From Bacteroidales bacterium (GTDB lineage: Bacteria; Bacteroidota; Bacteroidia; Bacteroidales; VadinHA17), in the NCBI GenBank assembly GCA_021738535.1, contig JAIPBU010000007.1, positions 1 to 64,000 of the forward strand: a stretch of DNA of 64,000 bases, written 5' to 3'. The translations under genes and the position numbers were made by a program. Below the pieces are notes generated by a model that saw only the letters and a program-made list of their open reading frames with translations, had not been told where the DNA came from and searched no databases. Of the stretch, positions 6,145 to 22,963 are shown one piece after another (the first letter of the stretch is position 1; every line of letters starts with the position of its first letter).

Positions 6145-6816
6145 ATGAAAGACCTTGATATTATTAGAATTAGTTTCCGAAACAAGATAAAACCAGGGCA
6201 ACTGAGTGCGTTCAGATCAGCCATCGCTCAAACAGCCGGATTTGAAAAAGTACTGTTTCATAATCATCTCGGGGATAATTACAGGCAGGAATATCCCCTG
6301 ATACAGTATAAATTCATAGCCGGTTATCCCAACATAATTGCTCTTGGTAAAGGTATTGAGGAAATGCAATATTTTTTCTTAAAAAAAGAAAGGAATATTA
6401 CACTGGATGGAAAGACTTACCCTCTCAAGGTAATGAAAACTGCACTCAATAGGGTAAATGTAAGGATTGAAAAAGACACAGCATGGGAATATACACTTCA
6501 TCACTGGCTACCTTTTAACCAGGATAACTACAGGAAGCATCAATCATTAAAAAGTCTTGCTGACAAAATTGAAAACCTTCAAAAAATACTTACCGGCAAT
6601 ATTCTTACCTTTCTCGAGGCTGTAAAGGTAGATAAAGATATAAGACTCACCGTATATATAACCGAGATTACCAATCGACAAGTGGTTAAGGTTAATAATG
6701 TTTTAATGGAAAGCTACAACATTAATTTTGAGGCCAATACATTTTTACCTAATTATGTTGGCATCGGGAAAAGCGCAAGCCAGGGACATGGTATTTTGAG
6801 AATGAAGAATAAATAA
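6145..6816 (+). CDS. cas6: Cas6-family CRISPR RNA endoribonuclease
   Basis: 223 residues. The C-terminal glycine-rich loop (GIGKSASQGHGILRM, ending six residues before the stop) and the double-ferredoxin length are typical of Cas6-type RAMP proteins, which cut the CRISPR transcript within each repeat to release crRNAs with an 8-nucleotide 5' handle. Here that handle would be ATTAAGAC. It is the first gene of a tightly packed plus-strand operon; cas10 begins 7 bases downstream. An upstream ATG runs straight into a TAA, so ATG 6145 is the start. A candidate catalytic His lies in LHHWLPFN. Confidence in the family is good, less so in the catalytic residue. Confidence 0.8.
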   Translation: MKDLDIIRISFRNKIKPGQLSAFRSAIAQTAGFEKVLFHNHLGDNYRQEYPLIQYKFIAGYPNIIALGKGIEEMQYFFLKKERNITLDGKTYPLKVMKTALNRVNVRIEKDTAWEYTLHHWLPFNQDNYRKHQSLKSLADKIENLQKILTGNILTFLEAVKVDKDIRLTVYITEITNRQVVKVNNVLMESYNINFEANTFLPNYVGIGKSASQGHGILRMKNK

Positions 6817-6823
6817 GACCAAT

Positions 6824-8326
6824 ATGAACTATAAAGAACACTCTGACAATCTAATAAATATTCTCCAGAATAATTTCAGCAAAAATGATTTTACTGGTAA
6901 AATCAGAACAAAAATTCCAGCGAACAGATACCTGGTCAAAGGTGATCTCTCCGGCATACAGGATTTTATTTTCTCAATCCCATCAAAAGGTGCGGCAAGG
7001 AAGCTAAAAGCACGCTCACAGTTTATAACCAATAAAACCCTTTCGCTGGCAAAAAGGTTAAAAATAATGTATCCTAATCATATTGAATTGTATATTGGTG
7101 GTGGTAACTTCTATATTTTTGCAGAAATCCAAGACATAACAGACCTTGAATTATTTGTAAATGATTTAAACCACGATAATTCGGAACCATATTTAATAAT
7201 TTCATGGATTGAAGTTACAGATGACGATCTTGTTAATTTTGAAAAAACCAGGGAAACGCTTGAAGCTATATGCGGGAAGGCAAAATTTCAGAAATTTAAG
7301 AATAATCCAAATAGATTTCTTCCTTATGAGGAAACCAAATCAGCAAACCCTACAGGAAATGAGAACTTAAAAGGTCTGCCTTTATGGAATGCCAATCTTA
7401 TTGAACTGTTCTCGACGAACTCGCAACAAAGTTCAGCCCTAAATGAGGGTGAGATAATTCAATTCGAGCATTTAGCTGCTTTGGCCGGCATCAGAACAGG
7501 AACTACAAAGCTGGGTGTATTAAAACTTGATGTAGATGACCTGGGAATACTCTTTGGGTCTTTGCCTAACCTGGATGCAAGCAAGGCTGTATCTCATGCC
7601 CTGGAATATTTCTTTGATCAGTATCTCATAGAACTACTCGCAAGATCATATAATAGTAAAGAAGGAACTGGCTTGAGAACCTATTACAGGGATAATCTTT
7701 ACATAGTGTTTTCAGGAGGAGATGATGCTTTTATAGTCGGAGCCTGGGATGCTATAACTGATTTCAGCTTACTTATTGCCGAAGAGTTTAAAAAATACAC
7801 AGGCTTCGACAACATGGCAAATGAGGACCATAAACTAACATTTTCCGCATCCCTCATGGTTGTTGATCATCACTTTCCAGTTAAAATGTTTTCACACGAG
7901 GCTGAAGAAATGCTACACAAGGCCAAATATTATGTACCCGGTGAAAAAGGCAGGATAAATTTTATGGGTAATATATTCACCTGGGAACAATTCATTAACA
8001 TAAAGGAATTAACCGGTACTTTCTGTGAGTTAATAGTTAACAGGAATGAATCAAGGTCCTTTCTTGCCAAGCTTCAACAACTTTCACTAGACTATGAAGA
8101 GGACAGCAGGAAATCAGCAGAAATGGACTCGATACCAAAAGTTTGGAGGCTGAATTATGTCTTCAGAGATATAAAAAAGACCAACAAAGATTTTATAATA
8201 CAAAAAATTATCAGGCCCTACGAAATGGAAATGTTGAAATTCAACCTTGAAAAAACCAATGTACAGGCAAATATTTATTATGCGGCAACCAGGTGGACTG
8301 AATTATTGACAAGAAACTCTAAATAA
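6824..8326 (+). CDS. cas10: Cas10/Csm1, GGDD cyclase form without HD domain
   Basis: 500 residues. Residues 39-50 (KGDLSGIQDFIF) are the hallmark start of the first Palm domain, and SGGDDAFIVG holds the intact GGDD cyclase motif at residues 298-301. In type III systems the second Palm makes cyclic oligoadenylates when the complex binds target RNA. Typical Csm1 is 750-850 residues with an N-terminal HD nuclease. Here only about 38 residues precede the Palm, so the HD DNase is missing. A four-helix D4-like C-terminus follows. The protein should therefore signal through cyclic oligoadenylate rather than cut DNA, consistent with the CARF-HEPN protein downstream. It sits between cas6 and csm2 with gaps of 7 and 8 bases. 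Confidence 0.95.
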   Translation: MNYKEHSDNLINILQNNFSKNDFTGKIRTKIPANRYLVKGDLSGIQDFIFSIPSKGAARKLKARSQFITNKTLSLAKRLKIMYPNHIELYIGGGNFYIFAEIQDITDLELFVNDLNHDNSEPYLIISWIEVTDDDLVNFEKTRETLEAICGKAKFQKFKNNPNRFLPYEETKSANPTGNENLKGLPLWNANLIELFSTNSQQSSALNEGEIIQFEHLAALAGIRTGTTKLGVLKLDVDDLGILFGSLPNLDASKAVSHALEYFFDQYLIELLARSYNSKEGTGLRTYYRDNLYIVFSGGDDAFIVGAWDAITDFSLLIAEEFKKYTGFDNMANEDHKLTFSASLMVVDHHFPVKMFSHEAEEMLHKAKYYVPGEKGRINFMGNIFTWEQFINIKELTGTFCELIVNRNESRSFLAKLQQLSLDYEEDSRKSAEMDSIPKVWRLNYVFRDIKKTNKDFIIQKIIRPYEMEMLKFNLEKTNVQANIYYAATRWTELLTRNSK

Positions 8327-8334
8327 CCAAAACC

Positions 8335-8742
8335 ATGAATCACACAAGAAGGGATTACAGGCAAGAACAGCATCACAAACCTTTTCCAAAGACAGGGGAG
8401 AAACTCCTGGAATTTGCCAATAAGGGCAGTGACACAGGATTAATAATCGATGAAATTAAAGAATTTGTAAGGCATAATGGGAAAAGCATATCTTCATCAC
8501 AATTAAGAAATATCTATGGGAAAGTTGTCTCCATAGATGACGTTGATATCACCGGCATCCAACTTCTCAGACCCAAACTAGCATATGTAGCTGCCAGACA
8601 AGATAAACAAGATGCAAGAATTTTTGTCGAATACATTGATGAACTTATATCAAAAATAAACAATGAAAGCCATGTAAAAAGTTTCAAAATATTCATGGAA
8701 GCTATTGTGGCATACCATAAGTTTTACGCAAAATCAAAATAA
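8335..8742 (+). CDS. csm2: Csm2, small subunit (Cas11) of the type III-A complex
   Basis: 135 residues, helical. The motif LLRPKLAYVAARQ followed by AYHKFYAK at the C-terminus is characteristic of Csm2, which lines the inner face of the Csm filament and helps hold the target RNA. The gene lies between cas10 and csm3 with gaps of 8 and 6 bases, the standard csm order. ATG 8335 is the only sensible start. Confidence 0.92.
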   Translation: MNHTRRDYRQEQHHKPFPKTGEKLLEFANKGSDTGLIIDEIKEFVRHNGKSISSSQLRNIYGKVVSIDDVDITGIQLLRPKLAYVAARQDKQDARIFVEYIDELISKINNESHVKSFKIFMEAIVAYHKFYAKSK

Positions 8743-8748
8743 TCTGAT

Positions 8749-9465
8749 ATGGAAAAGTTAACAGGTAAAGTAATTTTATCGGGAAAAATAACAACCCTAA
8801 CCGGTTTACACATTGGCGGATCCTCATCTGCACTTGATATCGGCGGAATTGACTTAAATGTGATAAAAACAGCTGCTGGTTTACCTTTTATCCCGGGCAG
8901 CTCAATAAAAGGTAAGTTAAGAAACCTTCTCGCCCGTAAAGCAGGATCCCCGAAAGTTGAAGACGATCCAGTTGCAATTTCCAGGATCTTCGGTACATCC
9001 GGGGATAAAAGTGTAACAGGCCCTAATACAAGGTTATCTGTCAGGGATGCAATGCTTGATAAAAAAGCCTTCGCAGAGGAGTTTGGCAATTCCGAACTGG
9101 AATACAGGTACACAGAGGGGAAATGGGAAAACACGATCGACAGGACTAAGGGCTCAGCAAAGAACCCCCGCCAGCTGGAACGAGTGCCTGCGGGCGCAGA
9201 ATTCTGTTTCGAAATGGTTTATGACATTTACGAAGATGGTAAGAGGGATGAAGATTTAAAATCCATTATTGAATCCATGCGCTTACTCGAAGATGATTAC
9301 CTTGGGGGAAGCGGATCGAGGGGATATGGAAAAATTAAATTCTCTGAAGTAAAACTTGAATTGAGGGACATCAAAGAATATTACGAGAAGGAAGAGACAG
9401 TTAATGATTTTAACTCGCTTGATTCCTTTGCCAAAGAATTTAACCAAGGACAAAATAATGGATAA
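8749..9465 (+). CDS. csm3: Csm3, Cas7-type backbone subunit and target-RNA nuclease
   Basis: 238 residues. Visible features are TGLHIGGSSSALDIGGID, with the D35 that aligns to the catalytic Asp (D33 of Streptococcus Csm3), the RAMP block FIPGSSIKGKLR, NTIDR, and the glycine-rich DYLGGSGSRGYGKI. Several copies polymerise on the crRNA and cut bound target RNA at 6-base intervals. The active-site Asp is present, so target RNA cleavage should be active. The stop overlaps the csm4 start by 8 bases, suggesting translational coupling. Confidence 0.97.
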   Translation: MEKLTGKVILSGKITTLTGLHIGGSSSALDIGGIDLNVIKTAAGLPFIPGSSIKGKLRNLLARKAGSPKVEDDPVAISRIFGTSGDKSVTGPNTRLSVRDAMLDKKAFAEEFGNSELEYRYTEGKWENTIDRTKGSAKNPRQLERVPAGAEFCFEMVYDIYEDGKRDEDLKSIIESMRLLEDDYLGGSGSRGYGKIKFSEVKLELRDIKEYYEKEETVNDFNSLDSFAKEFNQGQNNG

Positions 9466-10468
9466 AGTATTCTTATTTACCCGCCCGGGCCAGCAATACC
9501 ACTTTGGTGGCTTTAACAATTTTGAAAGCAATGTGCTTGAAGAGTGTGATACACATTTACATTCTGACCTTCTATTCTCAGCCCTGGTGGATACTTGCTC
9601 AAGCGTCTACCCTAATCTCACGGAAGATCTTGTTTCTGAATTTGAAAATGGTAGAATAAAATTATCATCGGCATTCTGGTTTATTGAAAAAGACAATATA
9701 AAAATCTGCTTTTACCCGAAACCCGTCTCATGTGAACTTTTCAGGACAGACGATCATAAGAAATTTAAAAAAGTGAAATATGTTTCCGAAGGGATAATTA
9801 AACAGGGCATCACACCTGATCTATGGAATGTAGAATGCAGCCTGTCTGGAACATTCCTTTGCACTAAAAGCGAGTTAAAAAAGCTGGGGTTTGAAGATAT
9901 GCCTGGGCTCTACAAAACAATCATCCTGCCTAAAGTCAAGGTTCACACAGATTCCGTTGAAGACAGGTTGTTCCAACAAACAAATATACAGGTAAATGAT
10001 CTGGATGTACCGGGGACATCAACCGGTTTTTGGTTTTTCCTTGACACACCATCCAATGATTCTCCTATGTACAAAATCATCACCCCCTTGCTGAGAATAC
10101 TTGCTGATTCGGGATTGGGAGGCCAGAGGTCAACCGGCACTGGAAAAATACATGCAATTACTAAAAGTGATATTGATGATATAGAAATAAATACTGGGGA
10201 ACCGGTCATGACATTAGGGCTGCTATCTCCTGGTCAGAATGATACAGATGACATGCTGTATTACACTCTTCTTACAAGAGGTGGAAAATACTCCGGTACA
10301 AAACAAAGACTAATGCTGTTAAATATGGCGGCTGAAGGATCTATACTCAAGCGGGTTCTGGAGGGTAATATTGTAAACCTCCAGAAAAGCAAGATGAAAA
10401 CATCACTCAGGTATGGTAATCCTCTACAGGTGAATATTAATAAAAAGTTTCTTCCATCATGGAGTTAA
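9458..10468 (+). CDS. csm4: Csm4, Cas5-type subunit
   Basis: 336 residues from ATG 9458 (MDKVFLFTRPGQQYHFGG). An in-frame ATG at 9404 lies deep inside csm3 and is not needed. The N-terminal RAMP fold, the motif DSGLGGQRSTGTGKI and the overall length fit Csm4, which binds the 5' handle of the crRNA and contacts Cas10. It overlaps csm3 by 8 bases and csm5 by 10. Confidence 0.92.
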   Translation: MDKVFLFTRPGQQYHFGGFNNFESNVLEECDTHLHSDLLFSALVDTCSSVYPNLTEDLVSEFENGRIKLSSAFWFIEKDNIKICFYPKPVSCELFRTDDHKKFKKVKYVSEGIIKQGITPDLWNVECSLSGTFLCTKSELKKLGFEDMPGLYKTIILPKVKVHTDSVEDRLFQQTNIQVNDLDVPGTSTGFWFFLDTPSNDSPMYKIITPLLRILADSGLGGQRSTGTGKIHAITKSDIDDIEINTGEPVMTLGLLSPGQNDTDDMLYYTLLTRGGKYSGTKQRLMLLNMAAEGSILKRVLEGNIVNLQKSKMKTSLRYGNPLQVNINKKFLPSWS

Positions 10469-11610
10469 AAAATTTCAAATTCAAAATATCCACATTTTCA
10501 CCCGTATGCATTTCGGATACACAGGATAAAGTCCTCTCTCCCTATACCGATTTCGTGATTAAACAAGGTAATGTACATTATATTGACCATCTCGAGATGG
10601 ATAGCTACTTCGCCCATAACCCCAGCCTGGTGAATATTTACTCTAACAAGATCAAAGCGCTGTACAAGGGTGGAAGGAGCACATTTTCGCTGGCCGGTTT
10701 TATTGAAAACGAATTGGGTTCAAACGTGGAAGACATTACAAGGCTCAGCCTTGAATATAAGGGGCAGAACTTTGACAGGAAAAACAATATAACCTCTGTA
10801 ATTCGAAACGCAGGCAAACCATATATCCCGGGCAGTTCTGTAAAAGGAGCCCTTAAAGGTGCTTTCTTGTATTATTGGCTTAATAAAACAGCAAATGGCA
10901 GTGAAGTATTAGGTAAAATATACAATGCCGTAAAATACATCAACGACAGCCGGAATCTTGTAAAGGCCATTTCCGACTTAATTAACCCCTTTTTGGGTTC
11001 AGTTAATAATTCAACGGCCAATGAATTCAATAATCTGAGAGCAACAGACAGTAGTCTTTTTCATGAAACCGACCTTGCAGTCTATCACGCAAAACGGCTG
11101 CACATGAAAAAAGGCATTACACAAATACCAGCTGATCTTGAGGCTATTAATCCAGGCAAGGATTGCGCTATCACAATATCGATTAACGGCAAGTTTAGCG
11201 GTGAACGGGAGTGGTTAAACCAGGTACGGCCACAAGAGCTAAGCCAAATAGTGAACCTTTTTTCGCGTCAGAACCTCGAACATGATTGGGAGGATCTTGA
11301 TGACCATGTCGATGATATTGAAGATGGCAACCTGTACGATAATATTTTCGACTTCTACGAAAATTCAGCTGCTGAGATGGATAAACCTGGCAATGATGCT
11401 ATTTATTTACGGCTTGGAAGTGGAAAAGGATTCCTGCATCAGACAATAGGACTCGCCTTAAAGAATAAAGACAATGGTATCTACAGTAAATATTTTAAAC
11501 ATCTTAGACTTGGAAAAGGAAATCAAAAACAGTTCCCTGTCACCCGGTTATTCGCCATACCCCAGGGAACCCCATTCGGTTGGGTAAAAATAATTATGAA
11601 AAATGAGTAA
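10459..11610 (+). CDS. csm5: Csm5, Cas7-like terminal subunit
   Basis: 383 residues. The RAMP motif PYIPGSSVKGALKGAFLYYW and the C-terminal glycine-rich RLGSGKGFLHQTIGLAL, followed by FPVTRLFAIPQG, are those of Csm5. This subunit caps the filament at the 3' end of the crRNA and recruits trimming nucleases. It overlaps csm4 by 10 bases and the Csx1-like gene by 8, so the whole csm block is one transcription unit. Confidence 0.92.
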   Translation: MELKNFKFKISTFSPVCISDTQDKVLSPYTDFVIKQGNVHYIDHLEMDSYFAHNPSLVNIYSNKIKALYKGGRSTFSLAGFIENELGSNVEDITRLSLEYKGQNFDRKNNITSVIRNAGKPYIPGSSVKGALKGAFLYYWLNKTANGSEVLGKIYNAVKYINDSRNLVKAISDLINPFLGSVNNSTANEFNNLRATDSSLFHETDLAVYHAKRLHMKKGITQIPADLEAINPGKDCAITISINGKFSGEREWLNQVRPQELSQIVNLFSRQNLEHDWEDLDDHVDDIEDGNLYDNIFDFYENSAAEMDKPGNDAIYLRLGSGKGFLHQTIGLALKNKDNGIYSKYFKHLRLGKGNQKQFPVTRLFAIPQGTPFGWVKIIMKNE

Positions 11611-12835
11611 TAAAGTATTTATCTCCATACTCGGAACGGGCAATTATAATAAATGTAAATATTTCTTCGATAACCCGGATGTGCATCTTGAAACCAGGTA
11701 TGCACAGCTTGCCACATTACAATTACTGTATAATAACTGGAGCAATGATGACAAAGTACTCATTTTTACTACGCCACAGGCAAAAGAAAAGCATTATGAC
11801 TTACTTGAAGATGAATTCAAACAGCTTAATAAAGAATCGGAATTAATAAGGGTAGACATCGATAAAGGTCTGAACCCGGGGTCACAATGGGATATATTCG
11901 AAAAAATACTTGAGAATATACCTCCTGAAAGTGAACTATATATAGATATCACCCACTCATTCAGGTACCTGCCGATGCTGGTACTGGTACTGGCTAATTA
12001 TGCAAAAGCACTTAAAAATATAGAAATAGGCAAAATAACCTACGGCAACTGGGAAGCCAGGAATGAGAACAACAACACAGCACCAATTACAGATCTTACC
12101 TCCCTATCTTATGTTCAGGACTGGGCTGTAGCTGTTAACGATTTTACTGAATTTGGCAATGTCAAAAAATTACAAGCACTTGCCTCAAAAACATTAAAAC
12201 CACTTCTTTCAAAATCTGCCAACGATGACAAGAGTGCAAACCACCTTGAAAATGCTATAATTAGCCTGGAGCAGCTAACCGAGGAGATCCAGACATGCAG
12301 GTTGCAATCCATATACGAAGGAAGCAAAGCTACCGAAGTAATAATCAGTCTAAACAAGGTAAATAACGTAGATAGTAAGCCTCTCGCTCCACTCATAGGC
12401 ATGATGTCCGAAAAGACACAAGAACTGTCAGAAGAGAATAACCTTGATAATGGTTTTAAAGCAGTGGAATGGTGTATTGATAACGGCATGCTACAACAAG
12501 GCTACACCATCCTGCAAGAGAATATTATAAACTATCTCTGTGTTGAAACCAAGGTAGGCTTAACCAATAGGGAATTTCGTGAAGATTATTCAGCGGCACT
12601 GAATATAATATCAGGAAAAAATAAAACCCCTATTTCGAAAAACATGCAGAACCTGAAAAATGTAGACAGTATTGAGATGCTTGCAAAGGAGTATAGAAAT
12701 ATTGCAAATATAAGGAATGATATTAACCATGCCGGTATGAGAAAAAATGCCTGCGGGGCAAAAAAATTCAAACCCACCCTGCAAAAATCATTAGGAAAAA
12801 TAAAAGACATCATCTATGCTGGTAAACCTGACTAA
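11603..12835 (+). CDS. csx1: CARF-HEPN ribonuclease of the Csx1/TIGR02221 (DxTHG) family
   Basis: 410 residues. The N-terminal CARF domain has the family motif D114-I-T-H-S-F (DxTHG type) in LYIDITHSFRYLPML, which marks the cyclic-oligoadenylate sensor. The C-terminal HEPN domain carries R371-N-D-I-N-H376, the R-x4-H ribonuclease motif. On binding the second messenger made by Cas10, such proteins dimerise and degrade RNA non-specifically, giving dormancy or abortive infection. It is placed directly after csm5 (8-base overlap), where csm6 would sit in a classical III-A locus. The symbol is given for the family; the exact subfamily was not tested. Confidence 0.88.
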   Translation: MSNKVFISILGTGNYNKCKYFFDNPDVHLETRYAQLATLQLLYNNWSNDDKVLIFTTPQAKEKHYDLLEDEFKQLNKESELIRVDIDKGLNPGSQWDIFEKILENIPPESELYIDITHSFRYLPMLVLVLANYAKALKNIEIGKITYGNWEARNENNNTAPITDLTSLSYVQDWAVAVNDFTEFGNVKKLQALASKTLKPLLSKSANDDKSANHLENAIISLEQLTEEIQTCRLQSIYEGSKATEVIISLNKVNNVDSKPLAPLIGMMSEKTQELSEENNLDNGFKAVEWCIDNGMLQQGYTILQENIINYLCVETKVGLTNREFREDYSAALNIISGKNKTPISKNMQNLKNVDSIEMLAKEYRNIANIRNDINHAGMRKNACGAKKFKPTLQKSLGKIKDIIYAGKPD

Positions 12836-13184
12836 CCATCCTTCTAATCTTTGGCCAGCAGGGCAAAAAAAAGCTGCAGAAAAATATGGTGGCATAACTG
12901 ACTTACCGTTCCCAAAGATACCTTCTGAATGGGATAAACAAGATATTAAGGTATTAGTTAACAAGTATTCCAGGGAAATTCTGGAATTAAAGCAGGAAAC
13001 CCGTGAGAAGATATTTGTTCACCTGATGGGTGAATCAACTTTTATGTTTGCTCTTGGCCACCTGCTTATTAATAATGGAATAACATGCATCGTTTCAACC
13101 ACGGAAAGAAATACAGACGAGGAACATGAACTTAAACTCAGCAGATTCAGATTCGTAAAATTCAGGGAATTATTTATCCCTTGA
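12816..13184 (+). CDS. small type III accessory protein, Rossmann-like
   Basis: 122 residues. The start overlaps the 3' end of the CARF-HEPN gene by 20 bases, so it belongs to the operon. It begins MLVNLTNHPSNLWPAGQKKA, then DLPFPKIPSEWD. Its second half (VHLMGESTFMFALGHLL, then NGITCIVSTTERN) looks like an alternating beta-alpha Rossmann fold with a conserved-looking MGE and STTER. Proteins of this look and size occur beside type III loci. By position it is a candidate regulator or ring nuclease that breaks the cyclic-oligoadenylate signal, but no catalytic residue can be assigned and the idea is inference. Confidence 0.65.
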   Translation: MLVNLTNHPSNLWPAGQKKAAEKYGGITDLPFPKIPSEWDKQDIKVLVNKYSREILELKQETREKIFVHLMGESTFMFALGHLLINNGITCIVSTTERNTDEEHELKLSRFRFVKFRELFIP

Positions 13185-13237: not shown

Positions 13238-14257
13238 ATGGATCTAATACTTAATACTTTTGGAACTTCCCTGCTGAAGGAGAATGATAATCTAATCATC
13301 ATACATAAAGACGGTAAGCAAAAGATCCATCCTGAAAAAATAAAATCAATCATTATAGGAAGAGGAGCCCAGATTAGCAGCGATGCAACAATATTAGCAA
13401 TAAATCATCAAATAGACATCTTCTTCGTGGATCGGGCTGGTGATCCCGTAGGAAGAGTATGGAGTGTTAAATATGGGTCAGTTACCACCATAAGAAGGCA
13501 GCAGCTTGATTTCACCTTTTCAAATAAAGCTACTGAATGGATAAAAAAGATTATTGCAGAAAAAATAGGCAATCAAATTGCAATAATCCTGTCATTTGCA
13601 CCTGGAGATGAATATACAATAAGCCGCACAGAAACGGCCATCAGAAAACTTAACGATTACAAAACTAAGGTTGAAAACATAACTGTTGACATCATAAGTG
13701 AAATATCACGCACTTTAAGAGGGTGGGAAGGTGCTTCAGGGAGGGTCTATTTTGAAACACTTAACCTTTTTCTCCCGGAACAGTTTAAAAGCAAAGGACG
13801 TTCGCAACACCCGGCAACAGATCCTATAAATTGTTTACTGAATTACGGGTATGGAATATTATATGGCAAAATCGAAAGCGCCTTGGTTAAAGCAGGAGTG
13901 GATCCATACATAGGAATATTTCACCGCGAGGATTATAACAGGCCTGTTCTTGTTTTTGATATAATTGAAAAATTTAGGGTATGGGTAGATTATGTAGTCT
14001 TAACACTAATAATACAGGAGGCGATTGACGAAGAATGCTACAGTGTAAAAGAAGATGGTTCTTATTGGCTTGAAGGACTGGGTAAACGCATCCTGATTCA
14101 GTCACTAAACGATTACATGGAGGAAATAATAACACTTAATGGCCTGGAAAGATCAAGGTTGAATCACATTCAAATGTTTGCCCACAGTGTCGCAAAAATG
14201 TTTATGAACTTTAAAAATGCCAGTGACAATGATAATGGCAGGAAAAAAAATAAATGA
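13238..14257 (+). CDS. cas1: Cas1 integrase
   Basis: 339 residues with the three metal-binding residues in their usual contexts: E173 (RVYFETLN), H229 (GIFHRED) and D241 (VFDIIEKFR). Cas1 with Cas2 inserts new spacers at the leader end of the array. It is a plain Cas1: the first residues are already the beta-strand domain, and there is no fused reverse transcriptase. A 53-base gap separates it from the interference operon, so it may have its own promoter. Its 3' end overlaps the primase-polymerase gene by up to 41 bases. Confidence 0.97.
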   Translation: MDLILNTFGTSLLKENDNLIIIHKDGKQKIHPEKIKSIIIGRGAQISSDATILAINHQIDIFFVDRAGDPVGRVWSVKYGSVTTIRRQQLDFTFSNKATEWIKKIIAEKIGNQIAIILSFAPGDEYTISRTETAIRKLNDYKTKVENITVDIISEISRTLRGWEGASGRVYFETLNLFLPEQFKSKGRSQHPATDPINCLLNYGYGILYGKIESALVKAGVDPYIGIFHREDYNRPVLVFDIIEKFRVWVDYVVLTLIIQEAIDEECYSVKEDGSYWLEGLGKRILIQSLNDYMEEIITLNGLERSRLNHIQMFAHSVAKMFMNFKNASDNDNGRKKNK

Positions 14258-15251
14258 TCCATTTGATGCTTTAAAAAAAATAAGCATTGAATATTTTTAT
14301 AAATCTGTAAAAGAGCCCAAGTCTGAGCTTGCAAACCGCATTAATAGTATCAGGAAAGTAAAACAACTAAACCCGGAAAAATTTTCACAACTTAAAAAGA
14401 CCCTGCCTTATATAGTCTGTGGCATTTTTTCTCCTCCTTTTAGAAAAACGGAAAATTTTTCAAGAATAGGATACTTCATCCTTGACATTGATCACCTGTC
14501 AAGCAAATCCATAAACGTAAATAATTTAAAAAGTAAGCTTTCTGAAGACGAAAGAGTACATTGTATATTTATTTCGCCTGGGCAGGACGGCCTGAAAATA
14601 ATGTTTCAACTTGAAAATCTAATATATGATCCGGTTAAATATAAAGTGTTTTACAGGCAATTTGCGTCAAAATTTGCCTTGCATTACTCTATTGAACAAG
14701 TAGTGGACACGGTTACCTGTGATGTTTCAAGAGCTTGCTTTATTAGTTATGACAGTGAAGCTTTTTACAGGAAAGACCCTGTTACTATTAAAGCAGATGA
14801 ATATATAAGTTTTGAAGATTCAGGTGTACTTAAATCCATACAGGATGAAAACAGAGAGACAGCCAAAACAGTGAAGGCTCATAAAAAGGATTTGAATCAG
14901 CAGAAGGACTTAGATGAAGAAAAAATGCAGGAAATAAAATCATTACTTGGTGTCAGATACCGTCAATCCAGCCCTAAACAGATTTTCGTTCCGGATCAAT
15001 TAGAAAAGATAAAATCAAGTGTTGAAAAAACTTTTGAAGAATATAATATAGTAACCGATGAAATTTCAAATATTAATTTTGGCAAAAAATATAAGGTGCA
15101 CCTGGGCAATAAACATGCCGAAGTAAACCTTTTTTACGGAAAAAAAGGTTATGTAGTGGTCAAGAGCCCCAGGCGCGGTACCAATCCAGAATTGAATGAT
15201 ATTGTATGTAATATTTTAGGCAAAATGTTTTATGGGGCAGAAAGTGAATAA
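14217..15251 (+). CDS. CRISPR-associated primase-polymerase (BT4734/AEP type)
   Basis: 344 residues if ATG 14217 is used; ATGs at 14229 and 14235 are equally possible. The archaeo-eukaryotic primase core is visible: motif I hhhDhD as YFILDIDHL (D90, D92), motif II as ISPGQDGLKIMFQL (about 119-132), and motif III around DVSRACFISYD (169-179). This resembles the BT4734-like primases common in Bacteroidota and the primase-polymerases reported next to cas1 and cas2. Residues 185-250 are charged linker. A C-terminal domain of about 90 residues (KVHLGNKHAEVNLFYGKKGY, then VVKSPRRGTNPEL) is not part of the core and is unknown to me. The gene is wedged between cas1 and cas2 and overlaps both, so it probably makes or fills in DNA during spacer acquisition. 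Confidence 0.8.
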   Translation: MPVTMIMAGKKINDPFDALKKISIEYFYKSVKEPKSELANRINSIRKVKQLNPEKFSQLKKTLPYIVCGIFSPPFRKTENFSRIGYFILDIDHLSSKSINVNNLKSKLSEDERVHCIFISPGQDGLKIMFQLENLIYDPVKYKVFYRQFASKFALHYSIEQVVDTVTCDVSRACFISYDSEAFYRKDPVTIKADEYISFEDSGVLKSIQDENRETAKTVKAHKKDLNQQKDLDEEKMQEIKSLLGVRYRQSSPKQIFVPDQLEKIKSSVEKTFEEYNIVTDEISNINFGKKYKVHLGNKHAEVNLFYGKKGYVVVKSPRRGTNPELNDIVCNILGKMFYGAESE

Positions 15252-15726
15252 AGAAAGTAATACTGATCTTACTTTTGTCAGGAAAATGATGCTTATAAAA
15301 AAGGCTGGTATTAATACATATAAAAGTATTAACCACCCGGTTTGTAAAAGTGAAATCATAGAAGATCTTCCGTCACGGATTCAGCGTGCAATGAAGATTA
15401 CAACCAGCAAGGATTTAAAGCAAAACGAGATGATCTATTTTATAATGTACGACATAGAGAATAATAAAATACGACAAAATATAGCCAAATACCTTGAAAA
15501 GAAAGGTTGTACAAGGGTTCAAAAATCGATTTTTATTGCCAAATCTGAACGAAAAACCTATGATGAAATATCATCGACATTAAAAAAAGTACAGGAGTTA
15601 TATTCAAATAATGATAGCATATTTTTTGTTCCCGTAAGCACGGACCATATCAGGGCAATGAAGATCATTGGTGTAAATGTAGATTTCGATATGGTTTTGG
15701 GCAATAGGAATACATTGTTCTTTTAA
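15232..15726 (+). CDS. cas2: Cas2 with a 66-residue N-terminal extension
   Basis: 164 residues. The Cas2 ferredoxin fold starts at about residue 67 (EMIYFIMYDIENNKIRQNIA), with D74 of MYDIE as the conserved Asp, then RVQKSIFIAK and DSIFFVPVS. Cas2 is normally 85-100 residues. The extra N-terminus (KKAGINTYKSINHP and so on) is basic and unrecognised. ATG 15232 lies inside the primase-polymerase gene (20-base overlap). An internal methionine (MKITTSKD) could be an alternative start giving a nearly ordinary Cas2. It forms the adaptation unit with cas1 and the primase. Confidence 0.9.
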   Translation: MGQKVNKESNTDLTFVRKMMLIKKAGINTYKSINHPVCKSEIIEDLPSRIQRAMKITTSKDLKQNEMIYFIMYDIENNKIRQNIAKYLEKKGCTRVQKSIFIAKSERKTYDEISSTLKKVQELYSNNDSIFFVPVSTDHIRAMKIIGVNVDFDMVLGNRNTLFF

Positions 15727-15747
15727 TAGCGTTCATTGATGTATTTT

Positions 15748-15778
15748 TTGTATATTAACATGGATTATATTAATTTTG
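15748..15778 (+). promoter_or_regulatory. CRISPR leader promoter (TTG - 20 bases - TAATTTTG)
   Basis: TTG at 15748-15750 is followed 20 bases later by TAATTTTG at 15771-15778, matching the Bacteroidota -33/-7 promoter. Transcription would start near 15783, about 95 bases before the first repeat, and read through the array on the plus strand. The AT-rich leader spans 15727-15876. Confidence 0.6.
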
Positions 15779-15876
15779 CAGGCTGTAAAAATGAAAGCTT
15801 CCGGTACTATTTTTATATTTTTTCTTAAACCTGGCAGGGCCAAACAATTAATTAATAGCATATTAAAAAAAATGCT

Positions 15877-17315
15877 CTCAGAGTCAGTCTTCCAGAACAA
15901 GAAGGATTAAGACGTTATTGTAATTTTCGTCTACTCCGACGATCTGAAGGCGCTCAGAGTCAGTCTTCCAGAACAAGAAGGATTAAGACAGCTTTTTAAG
16001 GTCGAATAGACCTCGTCAAGATTTTTTCTCAGAGTCAGTCTTCCAGAACAAGAAGGATTAAGACCCATACCGCCAGCCGTTATGACCCATTTTGAGAACG
16101 CACTCAGAGTCAGTCTTCCAGAACAAGAAGGATTAAGACTCTCATAATTTTTACCGCTATCGTTTTGTTTTTTATGTCTCAGAGTCAGTCTTCCAGAACA
16201 AGAAGGATTAAGACATCCAGGGAACAGATAGTTCTACCTTTTTAGCACTCTCAGAGTCAGTCTTCCAGAACAAGAAGGATTAAGACAAACACTGACAGGT
16301 CAGTTCATCGACCTTATTCTCGCTCAGAGTCAGTCTTCCAGAACAAGAAGGATTAAGACACACAAACGGACGAATCTCCGTCGGAGTACCCCTCCTCAGA
16401 GTCAGTCTTCCAGAACAAGAAGGATTAAGACACTGACGAGTCTCCTTCGTTGTACGCTTCGTCAACGCTCAGAGTCAGTCTTCCAGAACAAGAAGGATTA
16501 AGACGACAACAGATCAGGTTCAAAGCACTGAACTGTCAATTCTCAGAGTCAGTCTTCCAGAACAAGAAGGATTAAGACCCTGAATACGGTTCTCACCGCC
16601 TTTTTGAAATTTAGTTAACTCAGAGTCAGTCTTCCAGAACAAGAAGGATTAAGACACGCCTTTTTGAAATTTAGTTAAGCTCATAAGAATTCCTCAGAGT
16701 CAGTCTTCCAGAACAAGAAGGATTAAGACTTCACCAACTTCATATGCTTTGACATTATTTTCATACTCTCAGAGTCAGTCTTCCAGAACAAGAAGGATTA
16801 AGACATGGTAACGATGAACGATAGCTCTTGAGCCATCTGCTCAGAGTCAGTCTTCCAGAACAAGAAGGATTAAGACCAGGTACTGTTCTCCATATAAATC
16901 ACTCATAGTAATACTCAGAGTCAGTCTTCCAGAACAAGAAGGATTAAGACAATACCTTGCCTGGGTAGAGGTGAAGATATGCAATCTCAGAGTCAGTCTT
17001 CCAGAACAAGAAGGATTAAGACTTTGATAAAATCTTTTGATGTACTCATTTTTTCTTAGCTCAGAGTCAGTCTTCCAGAACAAGAAGGATTAAGACCCCC
17101 GCGAGCAATAGGAAGATTATCTCTTCCTTAGGCTCAGAGTCAGTCTTCCAGAACAAGAAGGATTAAGACACGGCACTGTCACCGTCATTGTACCCTTCGT
17201 CGACTCTCAGAGTCAGTCTTCCAGAACAAGAAGGATTAAGACATTATCAATAAGGAATGAACATGCACCGCAATAGCTCTCAGAGTCAGTCTTCCAGAAC
17301 AAGAAGGATTAAGAT
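15877..17315 (+). CRISPR. CRISPR array, 20 repeats of 37 bases and 19 spacers
   Basis: The repeat is 37 bases (begins CTCAGAGTCAGTC, ends AGGATTAAGAC) and has an internal GTCTT/AAGAC stem. Repeats start at 15877, 15953, 16028, 16103, 16178, 16250, 16323, 16395, 16468, 16542, 16619, 16693, 16768, 16840, 16914, 16986, 17060, 17133, 17206 and 17279. Spacers are 35-40 bases. Repeats are identical apart from the last base of the last copy (17315, C to T), so the trailer is on the right and the leader lies next to cas2. Plus-strand transcription gives crRNAs with the handle ATTAAGAC. Spacers 10 and 11 share 22 bases; spacers 7, 8 and 18 encode related peptides on the opposite strand. I saw no spacer matching elsewhere in this window. 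Confidence 0.99.
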
Positions 17316-17439: not shown

Positions 17440-18891
17440 CTACTTAATGAACCAATCATTAACAAGATGTAACTCTTTTTTAGCTCTAGTAATTGCGGTA
17501 TACCACCACTGATAAATAGATGGTTTTGGTATACCATGTATTTTGTTATCAAGATATAAATAAACCTCTTCCCACTCGCCTCCCTGGCTCTTATGACAAG
17601 TAAGTGCATAACCGTAAGCTGATCTTAAGGCATTTAAATAAGGATCTTTGAACATATAGTCCTTAAACGCTCTATCTTTTTGACGTATGCCTTTTTCTTT
17701 CATCCTGTAATAATAATCCACCATCAAATCTTTATGTTGCTTGTCGTTTAAATTAGTATAATTAGAGTAAAGAATGTCTTCAATCATAAGTAAGTTATAT
17801 TCGCTTTTAAAAGCCAATTCTTCTACTGTAACCTGTAAAAAGGTTAACCCACATCTTTTCTCACTCTTCCCTGTTGCTGTAATTACAACCTGATCTCCAT
17901 TTACTAATCCAGTGAGATAGTTATTCTGAGTTACCATTAGCAAATCTCCTTCCTCAATCCTTCTGCTTTTTCTATTCAAGAATTTTCTAACGATCTGATT
18001 AATATCACTACAGTGCCTGTTTGTTTGGCATATAATAGTAGCTTCTTCATAACCTATTTCATGTAATCTTTCTAAATATGAATCGACAAGATCAACATGT
18101 GAACTGTGTAACCTAATATTGTTATAGCCTTTGACCGGTAGTTTTGCCCATTTTGTATGAGGATTTTCATTATGAAGCTTGCGTAAAGCCATTGATGATT
18201 CAATTATACCATTACCAATTGTTTGCCTGATTATTTCCCTTAACTCATAAGCTGATGGTAATATATTGTAGTTTGATTTAAGGTGTTCGTTTGAAAGAGC
18301 GGGTGAAATAACCTGGTTGATTGGAGGCAGTTGACAGGGATCACCAACAAAAATGAATTTTCCATTTAGATCATATTTAATCAAATCATCCAATAGCATA
18401 CCGCTACCAAACTTGGCGAATGAAATACTTTTATCAAGACTGTCACTTACCATTGAGGCCTCGTCTATAATATAAAATGTCTCTACTGATGATTGAATCT
18501 TTCTAAGGCCAAACATAAGCCTAATTTGACCGGTGTCATCAACTTCCAGCTTATTAGTCATTTTACTTACTTCCTCAAGATCTTCTTCTATATCATCAAA
18601 AACATAAATCTCGCTATGTATAGTTTTAACTGATTCTTTTGTGAAATTGGAAAGGATTTTTGCAGCCCTTCCAGTAGATGCAAGTAATTTGAAATTCACC
18701 TCTTTTTCGCTCATCCATTTTATCACACCACTTATAAGTGTAGTTTTCCCTGTACCAGCATAACCTTTTAGGATAAATACTTTATCTTTATTATTGCTAA
18801 CAAATTGTTTTAATGATTTAAAAGCTATGTCTTGGTCTTTCCTTAACGAAAAATTAAAGTAGTCGTCATTGGTTTTATTATTGCCAGACAT
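17440..18891 (-). CDS. RecD/Pif1-like superfamily-1 helicase
   Basis: 483 residues. Walker A is GYAGTGKTT (about 42-50), motif II is FYIIDEASMVSD, motif III is FVGDPCQLPP, and the C-terminus has YALTCHKSQGGEWEEVYLYL with WWYTAITRAKKELHLV (motifs V and VI). This is the RecD2/exonuclease V alpha type of 5'-3' DNA helicase core, without RecD2's N-terminal helix-hairpin-helix region. It runs towards the CRISPR array and ends 125 bases beyond the last repeat, so it is convergent with the array and not part of the cas operon. A role in recombination, repair or defence is likely, but the partner complex is unknown. Confidence 0.85.
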   Translation of the reverse strand: MSGNNKTNDDYFNFSLRKDQDIAFKSLKQFVSNNKDKVFILKGYAGTGKTTLISGVIKWMSEKEVNFKLLASTGRAAKILSNFTKESVKTIHSEIYVFDDIEEDLEEVSKMTNKLEVDDTGQIRLMFGLRKIQSSVETFYIIDEASMVSDSLDKSISFAKFGSGMLLDDLIKYDLNGKFIFVGDPCQLPPINQVISPALSNEHLKSNYNILPSAYELREIIRQTIGNGIIESSMALRKLHNENPHTKWAKLPVKGYNNIRLHSSHVDLVDSYLERLHEIGYEEATIICQTNRHCSDINQIVRKFLNRKSRRIEEGDLLMVTQNNYLTGLVNGDQVVITATGKSEKRCGLTFLQVTVEELAFKSEYNLLMIEDILYSNYTNLNDKQHKDLMVDYYYRMKEKGIRQKDRAFKDYMFKDPYLNALRSAYGYALTCHKSQGGEWEEVYLYLDNKIHGIPKPSIYQWWYTAITRAKKELHLVNDWFIK

Positions 18892-19476: not shown

Positions 19477-21156
19477 ATGACTGCACAGGCAACAGACATA
19501 ATAATCTACAGGGGTGAAAAATCAAGGTTATGCAATAACCCCCTGGAACAGTTATGGAAGTTCGAGAAGTTTGAGAGGCCGGACTTTAACCTTAGGAGTA
19601 CCGGCAACTGGAGAGGCTATATTGCTACCTGGGAAATAAAATACGACAATCTTTACCTCGTGGGCATAAAGGAGGATGACCCGGAATTTCCGCGTGAACT
19701 TATTGATTTTTTTCCTGAAACTCGTGGCAAACCGGTTAAAGCTTGGTGGTATACTGGTAAACTAAGAATAGTCAGAGGCAAAATAGTAAACTATATACAT
19801 GGAGGCTATGGAAGTAGCTACGAAAAAGAAATTTATCTTATAGTGAGGAGTGGTAAAGTTAAAGACAGGCATATAAAAAATTTCAAAGAAGAGGACTTTA
19901 TAGTCAAAAAAACAAGAAAAGAAAAAAAGCGAGAAGAGAAAGTACAGAAATATGTAAGGGAATTGTTCCGGTATACTTTTACTAATAAACAGCAGGGTAA
20001 ACCACCCAGGCGTCCAAAAATAAAAATGGCAAAAAAACCGGGGCCAAGCATAAAGGATTGCAGGAAGGTAAAAAAATTCCTGGCCGGGCACCCGGAATTC
20101 TTTATTGATCATATGTCGGGTGAATATCCACTGTCAAATGAGCTGATCCAAAGATACAAAGACCTGTGGAAATGGGACCTGTTATCAGATAACACAAACC
20201 TTAAATGGTCTGACAGGCTGATTGAAAAGTACGAGGACAGGTGGTCCTGGGGAGAAGAAGGAATGTATAGTCCAAATATAAGGTACAACGAGCAAATAAG
20301 TTGGACAACAGACCTTATCTATAAATTCAGGAACAGGATTGATCAAGAAGACCTGGCGCAATCGACTGATTTACTTATTAAATACCCTGATGTACTGGAT
20401 TTAATAACCAATAAACTATACTGGGAATATATTAGTAGCAATGAACACCTGCCATGGACATCGGCTATGATAGAAAAGTATGAAGATTATATAGATTTTG
20501 AGCTATTATCTGGCAACCGGTCTGTACCCTGGACGGAAGAACTAATAGCAAAGTATGCCAGCAGGTTTGACTTTAAAAGGTATGAAGAAGGGAATTACGA
20601 ACCATGGGCAAATAAGAAAGAAGATCATAGGTATAAGGAAGAAAATAAAGGAATTCTGGCACCAACCTGGTCGTTTTCCGATGATGAATACAAACTTAAG
20701 TACACAAAAAAAGAGCTGGCCCAGGTACTTGCTGATCCTGACTGGGAGATTATTAGCTGCGATAGATGTGTGCCATGGTCCGAGGAATTGATAGATAAGT
20801 ATATCGACAAGTGGGAATGGGGCCATAATATAAGAAGAATGGGCACAGGATTCTGCTATTCGTCGCATCCCCCTGGAATGGAATATGAAGAAGTTCATAA
20901 CGGGCTATCCTCAAATCCTGACCTGCCCTGGTCAGTCAAATTCATAAAAAAGTATTCAGGAAAGATAAATTGGAATCACCTTACAAATAATGAAGGATTG
21001 CCCTGGAGCTTATACTTCATAAATAAATTCAGAAAAAAATGGTCATGGAGAGAACTACGGTGGAATGAAGGATTGTGGAAGAAGGTTTTTTATCCCTGCC
21101 TGGATGATAGGGTGATTGGGGAAATCATGGAAAAAATTCGGGATTACGCAGATTGA
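19477..21156 (+). CDS. tandem W-rich repeat protein with an N-terminal beta domain
   Basis: 559 residues. Residues 1-150 form a beta-rich domain (YIATWEIKYDNLYLVGI, then KAWWYTGKLRIVRG). A lysine-rich linker runs to about 200. From about 210 to the end there are roughly ten copies of a 25-35 residue unit with the consensus (L/V)PW(S/T)xxLIxKYxxxWxWxxLSxN. The best copies include LPWTSAMIEKYEDYIDF, VPWSEELIDKYIDKWEW and LPWSVKFIKKYSGKINW. The repeats probably stack into a helical solenoid used for binding protein or nucleic acid. No signal peptide, so cytoplasmic. I do not know a named function; its position in a defence-rich stretch hints at one. Confidence 0.7.
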   Translation: MTAQATDIIIYRGEKSRLCNNPLEQLWKFEKFERPDFNLRSTGNWRGYIATWEIKYDNLYLVGIKEDDPEFPRELIDFFPETRGKPVKAWWYTGKLRIVRGKIVNYIHGGYGSSYEKEIYLIVRSGKVKDRHIKNFKEEDFIVKKTRKEKKREEKVQKYVRELFRYTFTNKQQGKPPRRPKIKMAKKPGPSIKDCRKVKKFLAGHPEFFIDHMSGEYPLSNELIQRYKDLWKWDLLSDNTNLKWSDRLIEKYEDRWSWGEEGMYSPNIRYNEQISWTTDLIYKFRNRIDQEDLAQSTDLLIKYPDVLDLITNKLYWEYISSNEHLPWTSAMIEKYEDYIDFELLSGNRSVPWTEELIAKYASRFDFKRYEEGNYEPWANKKEDHRYKEENKGILAPTWSFSDDEYKLKYTKKELAQVLADPDWEIISCDRCVPWSEELIDKYIDKWEWGHNIRRMGTGFCYSSHPPGMEYEEVHNGLSSNPDLPWSVKFIKKYSGKINWNHLTNNEGLPWSLYFINKFRKKWSWRELRWNEGLWKKVFYPCLDDRVIGEIMEKIRDYAD

Positions 21157-21505: not shown

Positions 21506-22963
21506 ATGGAAAGAGAATTTATAAAAGGTAATAAATATACTCATGAAGAATACATGCAGCTTTCAATTATTGAAATGCTAAAGAGCAAAGGAGATCATGT
21601 TGATAGATCAGATCCCAAAGTTGGGGCCGTTTTAGTAGACAAAAGCGGAGCATTCTTTGATAAAGCTCACAGAGGTGAATTCCGCGCAGGTGACCACGGC
21701 GAATTTACTTTACTGGAAAGAAAGCATCCAAGTGAAGACTTATCGGGCTTTACACTATATACTACTCTTGAACCTTGCATAAAGAGGAATCTACCTAAAA
21801 AGGGATGCTATAAGCGCTGCATTAACGCCCGACTCAAAAAAGTGTACATTGGTCATTATGATCCTGATCCTACGGTCGCTTCTAATGGATCCAAACTCTT
21901 GAGAAAAGCAAAAATTGAAGTAGGTTTTTATGATAAAAAGTACGAACAGATTATAGCCTCAGAAAATGAGCAGTATTTTAAGGAAGCTGCTAAACGTGCT
22001 GAAGAAGAAAAAACTAAGGAGATTCAATCTGCAATTGACCCCATTGAAGATGAGTTGGTAGAATTTCAGCTTCATGACTTTTCCGAAGAAGCACAACGTA
22101 CCATGGTTGATAAAATGGGGCTTTCTTATAAAATTGGCACTGACACATGGAATGGTTTTCTGAGTCGAATGAAGCTAATTAAAGTAGATGAAGAAAGTCA
22201 AGCTGCACGCCCAACAGGTTTAGGATTATTGCTTCTTGGTCAAAAACCAGAGCAACATTTTCCACAAGCTAGAATCAAGTTTACAGTCAGGTCCGGATCA
22301 GATAATCCCAAAATTGAGGATTTTAAAGGTCCTTTAGTTCTTCTTCCAGAAAAAATAGAACAGTATTTGAGCTTTATTTTTCCCAAAGGTTTTTCATCCC
22401 GAACGTCATTTAACCGGACGGAAAAAGTGGAAGCATCGTATTCTGCACTCTTTGAAGTAATAATGAATGCTATTGTTCATAGAGATTACAGAATTGAGGG
22501 TGGACGAATAATGGTAGAGGTTGATAATGAAAAAGTAGTGGTGTCCAGTCCGGGGAAACCTTTATGCACACTTGAACAACTCAATAGTTTCAGAGCACCA
22601 TCGTTCAGTCGAAATGCCAAAATTGCCCATATTTTTTTTGAAATGGGATTGGTTGAAGAAAGAGGCTTTGGTATGGAAGAGCTTGGAAAAGTAGAAAGCT
22701 ATGGCTTACCTAGGCCAAGGTTTGCCTTGGAAAATAATACCTTGAAAGCAACACTTTTTAGAGTAGTCAATCCGGCAAAACAAACTCGTCAAAGTTCAGA
22801 TTTACCTGGAATTGATATTTTAAGTAAACATAAATCACTTACAACTAAACAGTATGAAAAGATTTCTGGTTTGAAAGAACGACAGGCAAGGAATCATTTG
22901 ACGGCCTTGGTTGACAATGGGTATGCAAGAAAAGAAGGTACGAAATATATATGGATTGAGTAA
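21506..22963 (+). CDS. deaminase - GHKL ATPase - winged-helix fusion protein
   Basis: 485 residues. Residues 10-150 resemble a zinc nucleoside/nucleotide deaminase of the RibD/dCMP type: the H-x-E is HGEFTLLE and the zinc cysteines are in TTLEPC and LPKKGC. Residues 270-430 match the HATPase_c_4 module of RecG/AlbA-type regulators, with the N-box ALFEVIMNAIVHRDY, VSSPGKP, and GLVEERGFGMEEL. Residues 440-485 look like a winged helix (TTKQYEKISGLKERQARNHL). In the usual family the first domain is AlbA_2 (schlafen-like); here a deaminase takes its place. The motif Ala of HAE is Gly. A phage-nucleotide-depleting or base-modifying defence role is inferred from the fusion and context, not shown. 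Confidence 0.75.
   Translation: MEREFIKGNKYTHEEYMQLSIIEMLKSKGDHVDRSDPKVGAVLVDKSGAFFDKAHRGEFRAGDHGEFTLLERKHPSEDLSGFTLYTTLEPCIKRNLPKKGCYKRCINARLKKVYIGHYDPDPTVASNGSKLLRKAKIEVGFYDKKYEQIIASENEQYFKEAAKRAEEEKTKEIQSAIDPIEDELVEFQLHDFSEEAQRTMVDKMGLSYKIGTDTWNGFLSRMKLIKVDEESQAARPTGLGLLLLGQKPEQHFPQARIKFTVRSGSDNPKIEDFKGPLVLLPEKIEQYLSFIFPKGFSSRTSFNRTEKVEASYSALFEVIMNAIVHRDYRIEGGRIMVEVDNEKVVVSSPGKPLCTLEQLNSFRAPSFSRNAKIAHIFFEMGLVEERGFGMEELGKVESYGLPRPRFALENNTLKATLFRVVNPAKQTRQSSDLPGIDILSKHKSLTTKQYEKISGLKERQARNHLTALVDNGYARKEGTKYIWIE

Follow-up and report, generated by a model that had tools for sequence, protein, structure and literature searches.

A CAPP_B primase-polymerase with a predicted TBP-like C-terminal lobe in a type III-A CRISPR adaptation module of Bacteroidales

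The window, that is, the whole stretch of 64,000 nucleotides that was analysed, belongs to a genome of 3.43 Mb in 61 contigs, the host being a member of the order Bacteroidales. It carries a set of CRISPR adaptation genes (13238-15726), which have a full type III-A effector operon on one side and a CRISPR array of 20 repeats on the other. The features of the locus are given below, with the profile matches or other grounds in brackets.

6145-6816, + strand: Cas6, with Cas6b domains (PF17262, 2.9e-27; PF17955, 4.3e-21)
6824-8326, + strand: Cas10/Csm1, 500 aa (TIGR02578, 3.4e-76; PF22335)
8335-8742, + strand: Csm2 (PF03750, 4.9e-20)
8749-9465, + strand: Csm3 (TIGR02582, 5.9e-61)
9404-10468, + strand: Csm4 (TIGR01903, 7.6e-42)
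10459-11610, + strand: Csm5 (TIGR01899, 2.1e-26)
11603-12835, + strand: CARF protein of the Csx1/Csm6 kind (TIGR02221, 3.8e-27; CRISPR_DxTHG, 1.1e-11)
12816-13184, + strand: Csx20-like protein (NF040559, 2.7e-5; 24.5 bits, under the curated cut-off of 70)
13238-14257, + strand: Cas1, plain, 339 aa, no RT fusion (PF01867, 8.9e-66; TIGR00287, 3.2e-68)
14229-15251, + strand: CAPP_B primase-polymerase, approximately 340 aa, in an ORF from 14217 (PF08800, alignments, AlphaFold, hhalign)
14991-15236, + strand: predicted TBP-like C-terminal lobe of the primase-polymerase (hhalign to TBP-TOTE; fit to the RnlA structure)
15232-15726, + strand: Cas2, 164 aa, with an extended N-terminus (TIGR01573, 5.2e-11 over residues 67-154; PF09827, 3.1e-14)
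15727-15876, + strand: putative leader, short and A+T-rich, from cas2 to the first repeat (by position)
15877-17315, + strand: CRISPR array with 19 spacers (35-40 nt) between 20 repeats, each of 37 nt
17440-18891, - strand: RecD-like SF1 helicase (PF13604, 1.9e-18; UvrD_C_2, 8.8e-12; SH3_13, 4.5e-4)

The profile matches in the window reveal a type III-A set consisting of Cas10/Csm1, Csm2 to Csm5, Cas6 and the array. Cas10/Csm1 (6824-8326) possesses a GGDD motif, as read from its sequence, and an HD domain was not found in it by Pfam. The CARF protein (11603-12835) contains the stretch RNDINH, which we take to be a HEPN-like motif. Homologues of the Csx20-like protein recur in the CAPP_B loci surveyed below, and the RecD-like helicase (17440-18891), from which a TBP domain is absent, is of the same family as the helicase adjoining cas1 in other such loci. 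No Rfam matches are found within the window.

A preliminary description had read the interval from 13238 to 15726 as three overlapping genes encoding a plain Cas1, a BT4734-type primase-polymerase with an unrecognised C-terminal domain of about 90 residues, and an extended Cas2. Its coordinates are right, the overlaps are seen, and the 339-residue Cas1 is plain, with the PF01867 and TIGR00287 matches listed. Cas2 is likewise extended as described, the TIGR01573 match starting at residue 67 and the N-terminal extension of approximately 60-66 residues being kept in 12/12 aligned Cas2 proteins.

The primase-polymerase probably starts at 14229 (Met5 of the ORF), since its relatives start there. 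Residues 59-184 match PF08800 (BT4734-like_N, 7.6e-17), which is the sole domain that Pfam recovers in this protein and is present in 29/29 CAPP_B members, the window protein included. A DxD motif (D90-I-D92, within YFILDIDH) is invariant in all 29 of the aligned sequences, again including that of the window. Numbered from 14229 rather than 14217 these residues become D86 and D88 and, after this shift of four residues, they bear the numbers of the active-site D86/D88 of DbCAPP, the metal-binding pair that was mutated in that protein (PMC8211822). The AlphaFold model, built from 14 sequences (mean pLDDT 85.8, pTM 0.60), consists of an AEP part (approximately residues 1-200), a low-confidence linker (205-258) and a C-terminal lobe (259-340); given this pTM and a linker pLDDT of about 50, the pose of the lobe relative to the AEP domain is uncertain. 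Examination using VIA reveals that model residues 2-198 superpose on Prim-Pol structures, the top match being the cyanophage S-2L PrimPol (6zp9, Z 9.3), followed by Prim-PolC (Z 6.7) and RepB' (Z 6.4). The Z scores of 5.5-5.7 to the Marinitoga CAPP_A structures (7nqf, 5.7) are modest and inside the "common" range of the tool, as expected since CAPP_A is another class. By sequence, the primase alignment found no match among solved structures at E <= 1. The profile match and the superposition of the model thus bear out a BT4734-type primase-polymerase with an AEP core, and the modeled N-terminal domain has the AEP fold.

The gene arrangement Cas1 - primase-polymerase - Cas2 has already been published as CAPP_B. 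By Zabrady et al. (2021; PMC8211822) this class is characterized as a VirE_N-type Prim-Pol with no other recognised domains, belonging to type III systems and found almost exclusively in Bacteroidetes. DbCAPP (WP_101486965.1), a protein of 337 aa from a Dysgonamonadaceae bacterium, has its gene flanked by cas1 and cas2, a RecD-like helicase gene in the vicinity and no RT. It prefers DNA templates and dNTPs, performs poorly on RNA templates, displaces strands strongly, and begins DNA-templated priming with a 5' purine ribonucleotide; in yeast two-hybrid assays it contacts both Cas1 and Cas2, and Cas1 contacts RecD (PMC8211822). The window protein, of about 340 aa, shares with it a lone VirE_N/BT4734-type AEP domain, the position between cas1 and cas2, the type III context, a Bacteroidetes host, the lack of an RT and a RecD-like helicase nearby, although in the window this helicase lies beyond the array and on the opposite strand. 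Judged by these sequence features the window locus is a member of the published class, to which it adds one more. By comparison, CAPP_A, typified by Marinitoga piezophila MpCAPP (1137 CAPP; 7nqf, 7nqd, 7p9j), shares the AEP fold and the association with type III Cas1-Cas2, but possesses an N-terminal TPR or RT domain or a C-terminal helicase domain and, in MpCAPP, a PriCT-like end, none of which is found in the window protein.

Relatives were sought in 295 genomes of the order, 39 of which match the primase-polymerase at E <= 1e-5. Seventeen of these, the window's genome included, have full-length relatives (E <= 1e-52), at 18 places; the other matches are weak and confined to the AEP part (E >= 1e-12). 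A further scan of genome contigs gave 13 loci, one identical to a locus of the G-numbered genomes. The survey comprises 29 loci besides the window (16 + 13) in 28 genomes, with G171 giving two; L034, which has the same sequence as L006, was counted once, and L042, L035, L036 and L037 run off the ends of their contigs. Cas1 is encoded beside the primase in 28/29 of these loci and Cas2 in 26/29, the misses falling at contig ends. The complete Cas1 proteins are 324-357 residues long, so that none is an RT fusion.

According to the preliminary description, primase-polymerases beside cas1 occur mostly with RT-Cas1, which would make the present arrangement unusual, and the polymerase here replaces the RT. 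Cas1, the BT4734-type AEP protein and Cas2 do make up a single RT-free adaptation module, there being no RVT_1 match anywhere in the window's genome, and control genomes do match. The arrangement is not an oddity, however: it is that of CAPP_B, and no RT lies beside the 29 other loci. RVT_1 matches occur in 11/28 of their genomes, at 24 places, none at the module, as judged from their lying on other contigs (G-numbered genomes) or from coordinates and frame lengths (named loci). For 66 neighbouring ORFs that were otherwise unmatched, RVT_1 is absent from the 25 families listed, besides which there are 31 further families. A replacement of the RT was therefore rejected; with the surveyed CAPP_B modules lacking an adjoining RT, as does the window's genome as a whole, nothing shows that one was replaced. 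No paper joining BT4734, Cas1 and reverse transcriptase was found in the literature searched. RT-Cas1 modules do resemble the present one in tying a template-dependent polymerase to Cas1 in type III systems, whereas the window Cas1 has no RT domain.

The C-terminal domain of approximately 80-90 residues, which had been called unrecognised, is real and conserved among the relatives, but it is recognisable. It is predicted to consist of a helix, four strands and a helix, a block to which the full model assigns pLDDT values near 82-94. A profile of 28 such domains compared by hhalign with TBP-TOTE, the latter represented by nine domain copies from five Bacteroidales helicases, gave a probability of 95.2% (E 2.9e-8, 68 columns); as negative controls, the AEP part and Cas2 were each compared with this TBP-TOTE profile and reached 0.1-0.2%. 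Among solved structures, the RnlA N-terminal domain comes closest to the model, with Z 8.9-9.4 and 80 residues superposed at an rmsd of 2.3-2.4 (16% identity), and the next unrelated folds, of the KA1 type, rank below it at Z 7.2 and less. Single-sequence searches are weaker. Pfam TBP-TOTE scores 14.9 bits on the window domain alone against a cut-off of 27; in whole-protein scans the window protein misses E 0.1 and 10/29 members match (best 8.5e-4); and in a search of the genome the window domain, at 14.8 bits, is equalled or exceeded by short frames that are improbable as genes, for instance one of 41 residues at 20.9 bits (G000:C27). Foldseek alone gave no match at E <= 0.001. The assignment relies on the profile-profile comparison with its two negative controls and on the placing of RnlA above the KA1-type folds, from which the domain turns out to look like a single TBP lobe, of the sort formed by the RnlA N-terminal domain and by the TBP domain in TOTE systems.

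The E. coli RnlA toxin (4i8o, 6y2q) shares this fold only in its N-terminal domain, its RNase part having no equivalent in the window protein. In PMC8211822 the corresponding region is termed "a diverse smaller C-terminus", whereas that of the window protein is here assigned to a TBP-like lobe. Viral contigs encode a relative of the primase-polymerase in 350 of 421 stretches; among the 80 matches listed of these 350, one ends at residue 264 and the other 79 go no further than residue 226. Since the listed matches cover the AEP part, the C-terminal lobe does not appear to belong to the common viral VirE_N primase. TBP lobes of RNase HIII touch RNA-DNA duplex (PMC7221094), and the lobe of the primase-polymerase probably keeps a duplex, either primer-template or prespacer, in place for the polymerase and for Cas1-Cas2.

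A further characteristic of CAPP_B loci is the presence of genes related to TOTE conflict systems, the name of which stands for TPR, OB, TBP and Effector (PMC12458937, crediting Aravind et al. 2022). Profiles seeded with eight helicase and ten TPR-OB sequences, which are themselves among the members counted, place a RecD-like helicase in 14/29 loci as well as in the window (the match in L081 being weak, 4.5e-12) and a TPR-OB protein in 13/29; one or both are found in 22/29 loci. These counts are lower bounds, since contig ends truncate many of the loci. DUF7017 and S1CSD-TOTE domains are present in several of the TPR-OB proteins. In L035 the helicase possesses two TBP-TOTE domains (4.3e-27); a TPR-OB gene comes next, and csx20, cas1 and the primase lie at a greater distance beyond it. 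A pair of helicase-TBP-TBP and TPR-OB-OB genes is also found outside CRISPR in Bacteroidales, for instance in L047, as judged from about 3.2 kb around it. The primase gene of L036 continues into a TPR segment, for a total of 599 aa, and is a natural primase-TPR fusion; an in-frame stop lies further on.

The window itself resembles TOTE systems in the TBP-like lobe on its AEP protein and, through its relatives, in the TPR-OB genes and the RecD-like helicase with two TBP-TOTE domains. It differs in that no TPR-OB gene is found among its ORFs at E <= 1e-4 and its BT4734-like AEP protein has no AEP-TOTE match, for which reasons the locus is not filed as TOTE. Genome-wide, the TPR-OB search gave just a sub-cut-off match to DUF7017 on another contig, a query with one TPR-OB protein found no match, and AEP-TOTE (PF22548) has none at E <= 0.001. 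These companions and the TBP-lobe identity of the CAPP_B C-terminus may be new. No earlier report of either was found by a search of openly accessible main text, including PMC10345425 and PMC8211822; the link may be printed elsewhere.

One critical question is what the polymerase contributes to adaptation. The locus is very probably a type III-A adaptation module in which a CAPP_B primase-polymerase is the third partner of Cas1-Cas2. In such a module the RecD-like helicase and nucleases would expose single-stranded invader DNA, and the primase-polymerase would convert it to duplex prespacers, mend integration gaps, or both. The single TBP lobe would grip a short primer-template or prespacer duplex, possibly an RNA-DNA start, and pass the duplex on to Cas1-Cas2, and the extended end of Cas2 may dock the polymerase. 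DNA priming, extension, strand displacement and the contacts with Cas1 and Cas2 are presumed for the window protein by carrying over the DbCAPP experiments (PMC8211822).

The polymerase might instead act after integration only, filling or displacing repeat strands and having no role in prespacers. This is congruent with the strong strand displacement by DbCAPP and MpCAPP from nicks and half-site substrates, and with a pull-down that confirms Cas1 as a partner (PMC8211822). Gap filling would nevertheless make de novo priming superfluous, and the companion helicase suggests work on invader DNA. An exclusively post-integration role is unlikely, and more weight is placed on the making of prespacers than on gap repair, which needs neither priming nor a helicase.

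The direction taken by the preliminary description, in which the primase-polymerase stands in for an RT and takes spacers from RNA, is very unlikely. Type III systems do target RNA, an RT is not found in the genome, and the TBP lobes of RNase HIII contact RNA-DNA duplex (PMC7221094). The similar peptides encoded opposite spacers 7, 8 and 18 would fit the targeting of transcripts, although selection during interference alone would suffice for this. Against it, DbCAPP is poor on RNA templates and MpCAPP lacks efficient priming on RNA, according to PMC8211822, and CAPP_B modules have no adjoining RT in whose place the polymerase would stand. Although VirE_N primases are often encoded by Bacteroidales genomes and by viral contigs (350/421 stretches with a relative), it is exceedingly improbable that the BT4734-like gene is a mobile-element remnant or passenger next to cas genes: its full-length relatives (E 1e-88 to 1e-52) separate from the other matches (E >= 1e-12), keep the cas1-cas2 position and the catalytic residues, and have a C-terminal lobe beyond the reach of the 80 viral matches listed.

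For the adaptation module with Cas1-Cas2 and the primase-polymerase as partners, the identity of the C-terminal domain gives CAPP_B a testable duplex-binding part, with the N-terminal domain of RnlA and RNase HIII (PMC7221094) as structural partners, and the recurrent RecD-like and TPR-OB genes suggest extra proteins for in vitro assays of prespacer synthesis. Because these parts are common to CAPP_B modules and TOTE systems, we tentatively surmise, with somewhat less than even confidence, that CAPP_B modules combine CRISPR adaptation with TOTE as hybrids, in which the primase TBP lobe, a helicase related to the helicase-TBP-TBP proteins of Bacteroidales TOTE-like units and an optional TPR-OB protein would recognise invader DNA, either as duplex or as primer-template, and process it to prespacers. 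If so, sensing of the TOTE type would feed CRISPR memory.

The array is the single one with this repeat in the whole genome, and its leader end is taken to be the cas2 side since the mutated repeat is the last one (17279). A comparison of the array with 50,697 phage records gave zero protospacer matches, and in the viral contigs neither a back-translated motif of spacers 7, 8 and 18 nor the stretch common to spacers 10 and 11 found a match. When read on the opposite strand, spacers 7, 8 and 18 yield similar peptides.

The array of the window (15877-17315, + strand; 20 repeats and 19 spacers) contains two sets of mutually similar spacers:
16579-16692, adjacent spacers 10 and 11, which have a stretch in common.
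16360-17205, spacers 7, 8, and 18, which are similar when read on the opposite strand.

Spacers 10 and 11 are identical at 22 of 23 aligned bases and lie in the same orientation, a likeness such as overlapping protospacers would produce. A search of viral_contigs with the common stretch returned no match. The opposite-strand peptides of the second set are EGYSDGDSSVC (spacer 7), VDEAYNEGDSS (spacer 8), and VDEGYNDGDSA (spacer 18). The pair scores are 15 (7/8), 14 (8/18), and 9 (7/18); in 200 shuffles the 95% point was 10 and the highest score 15. From their sequences these three spacers look like mutually related, diverged units, as if one gene region of related viruses had been captured repeatedly.

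One effector gene of the locus encodes a short protein:
6824-8326, Cas10/Csm1, only 500 amino acid residues.

It retains the GGDD motif, and family profiles revealed no HD nuclease domain in it; its sequence suggests signalling without an HD DNase. Elsewhere in this genome, a second cas1, different from that of the window, is found on another contig (C19:3904-4575; 3.2e-32).

Other genes lie beyond the array:
19477-21156, 559-residue protein with W/Y-rich repeat units of approximately 40 residues each, as judged by eye.
21506-22963, protein combining a dCMP/cytidine deaminase domain at the N-terminus with a RecG-type HATPase_c_4 domain.
23257-24081, DUF3800 gene, next after the deaminase/HATPase_c_4 gene.

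The 559-residue protein had no match in Pfam. The latter two genes are possibly part of a defence region.

Among the unmatched neighbour ORFs of CAPP_B loci (alignment A8), 10/66 matched Card1-type CARF nucleases; this agrees with PMC8211822, which mentions a Can2-type nickase at CAPP loci. In one other CAPP_B locus a TOTE-like pair, consisting of a helicase with two TBP-TOTE domains and a TPR-OB-OB protein, is located a few genes upstream of csx20-cas1-CAPP (L035:1342-5015). A second (L036:489-2288) carries an in-frame fusion of CAPP to a TPR segment (599 residues), which a stop codon separates from the remainder of the TPR-OB protein. In a third, a PIF1/RecD-like helicase of 805 residues lies between the primase-polymerase and cas2 (L081:2184-4601).
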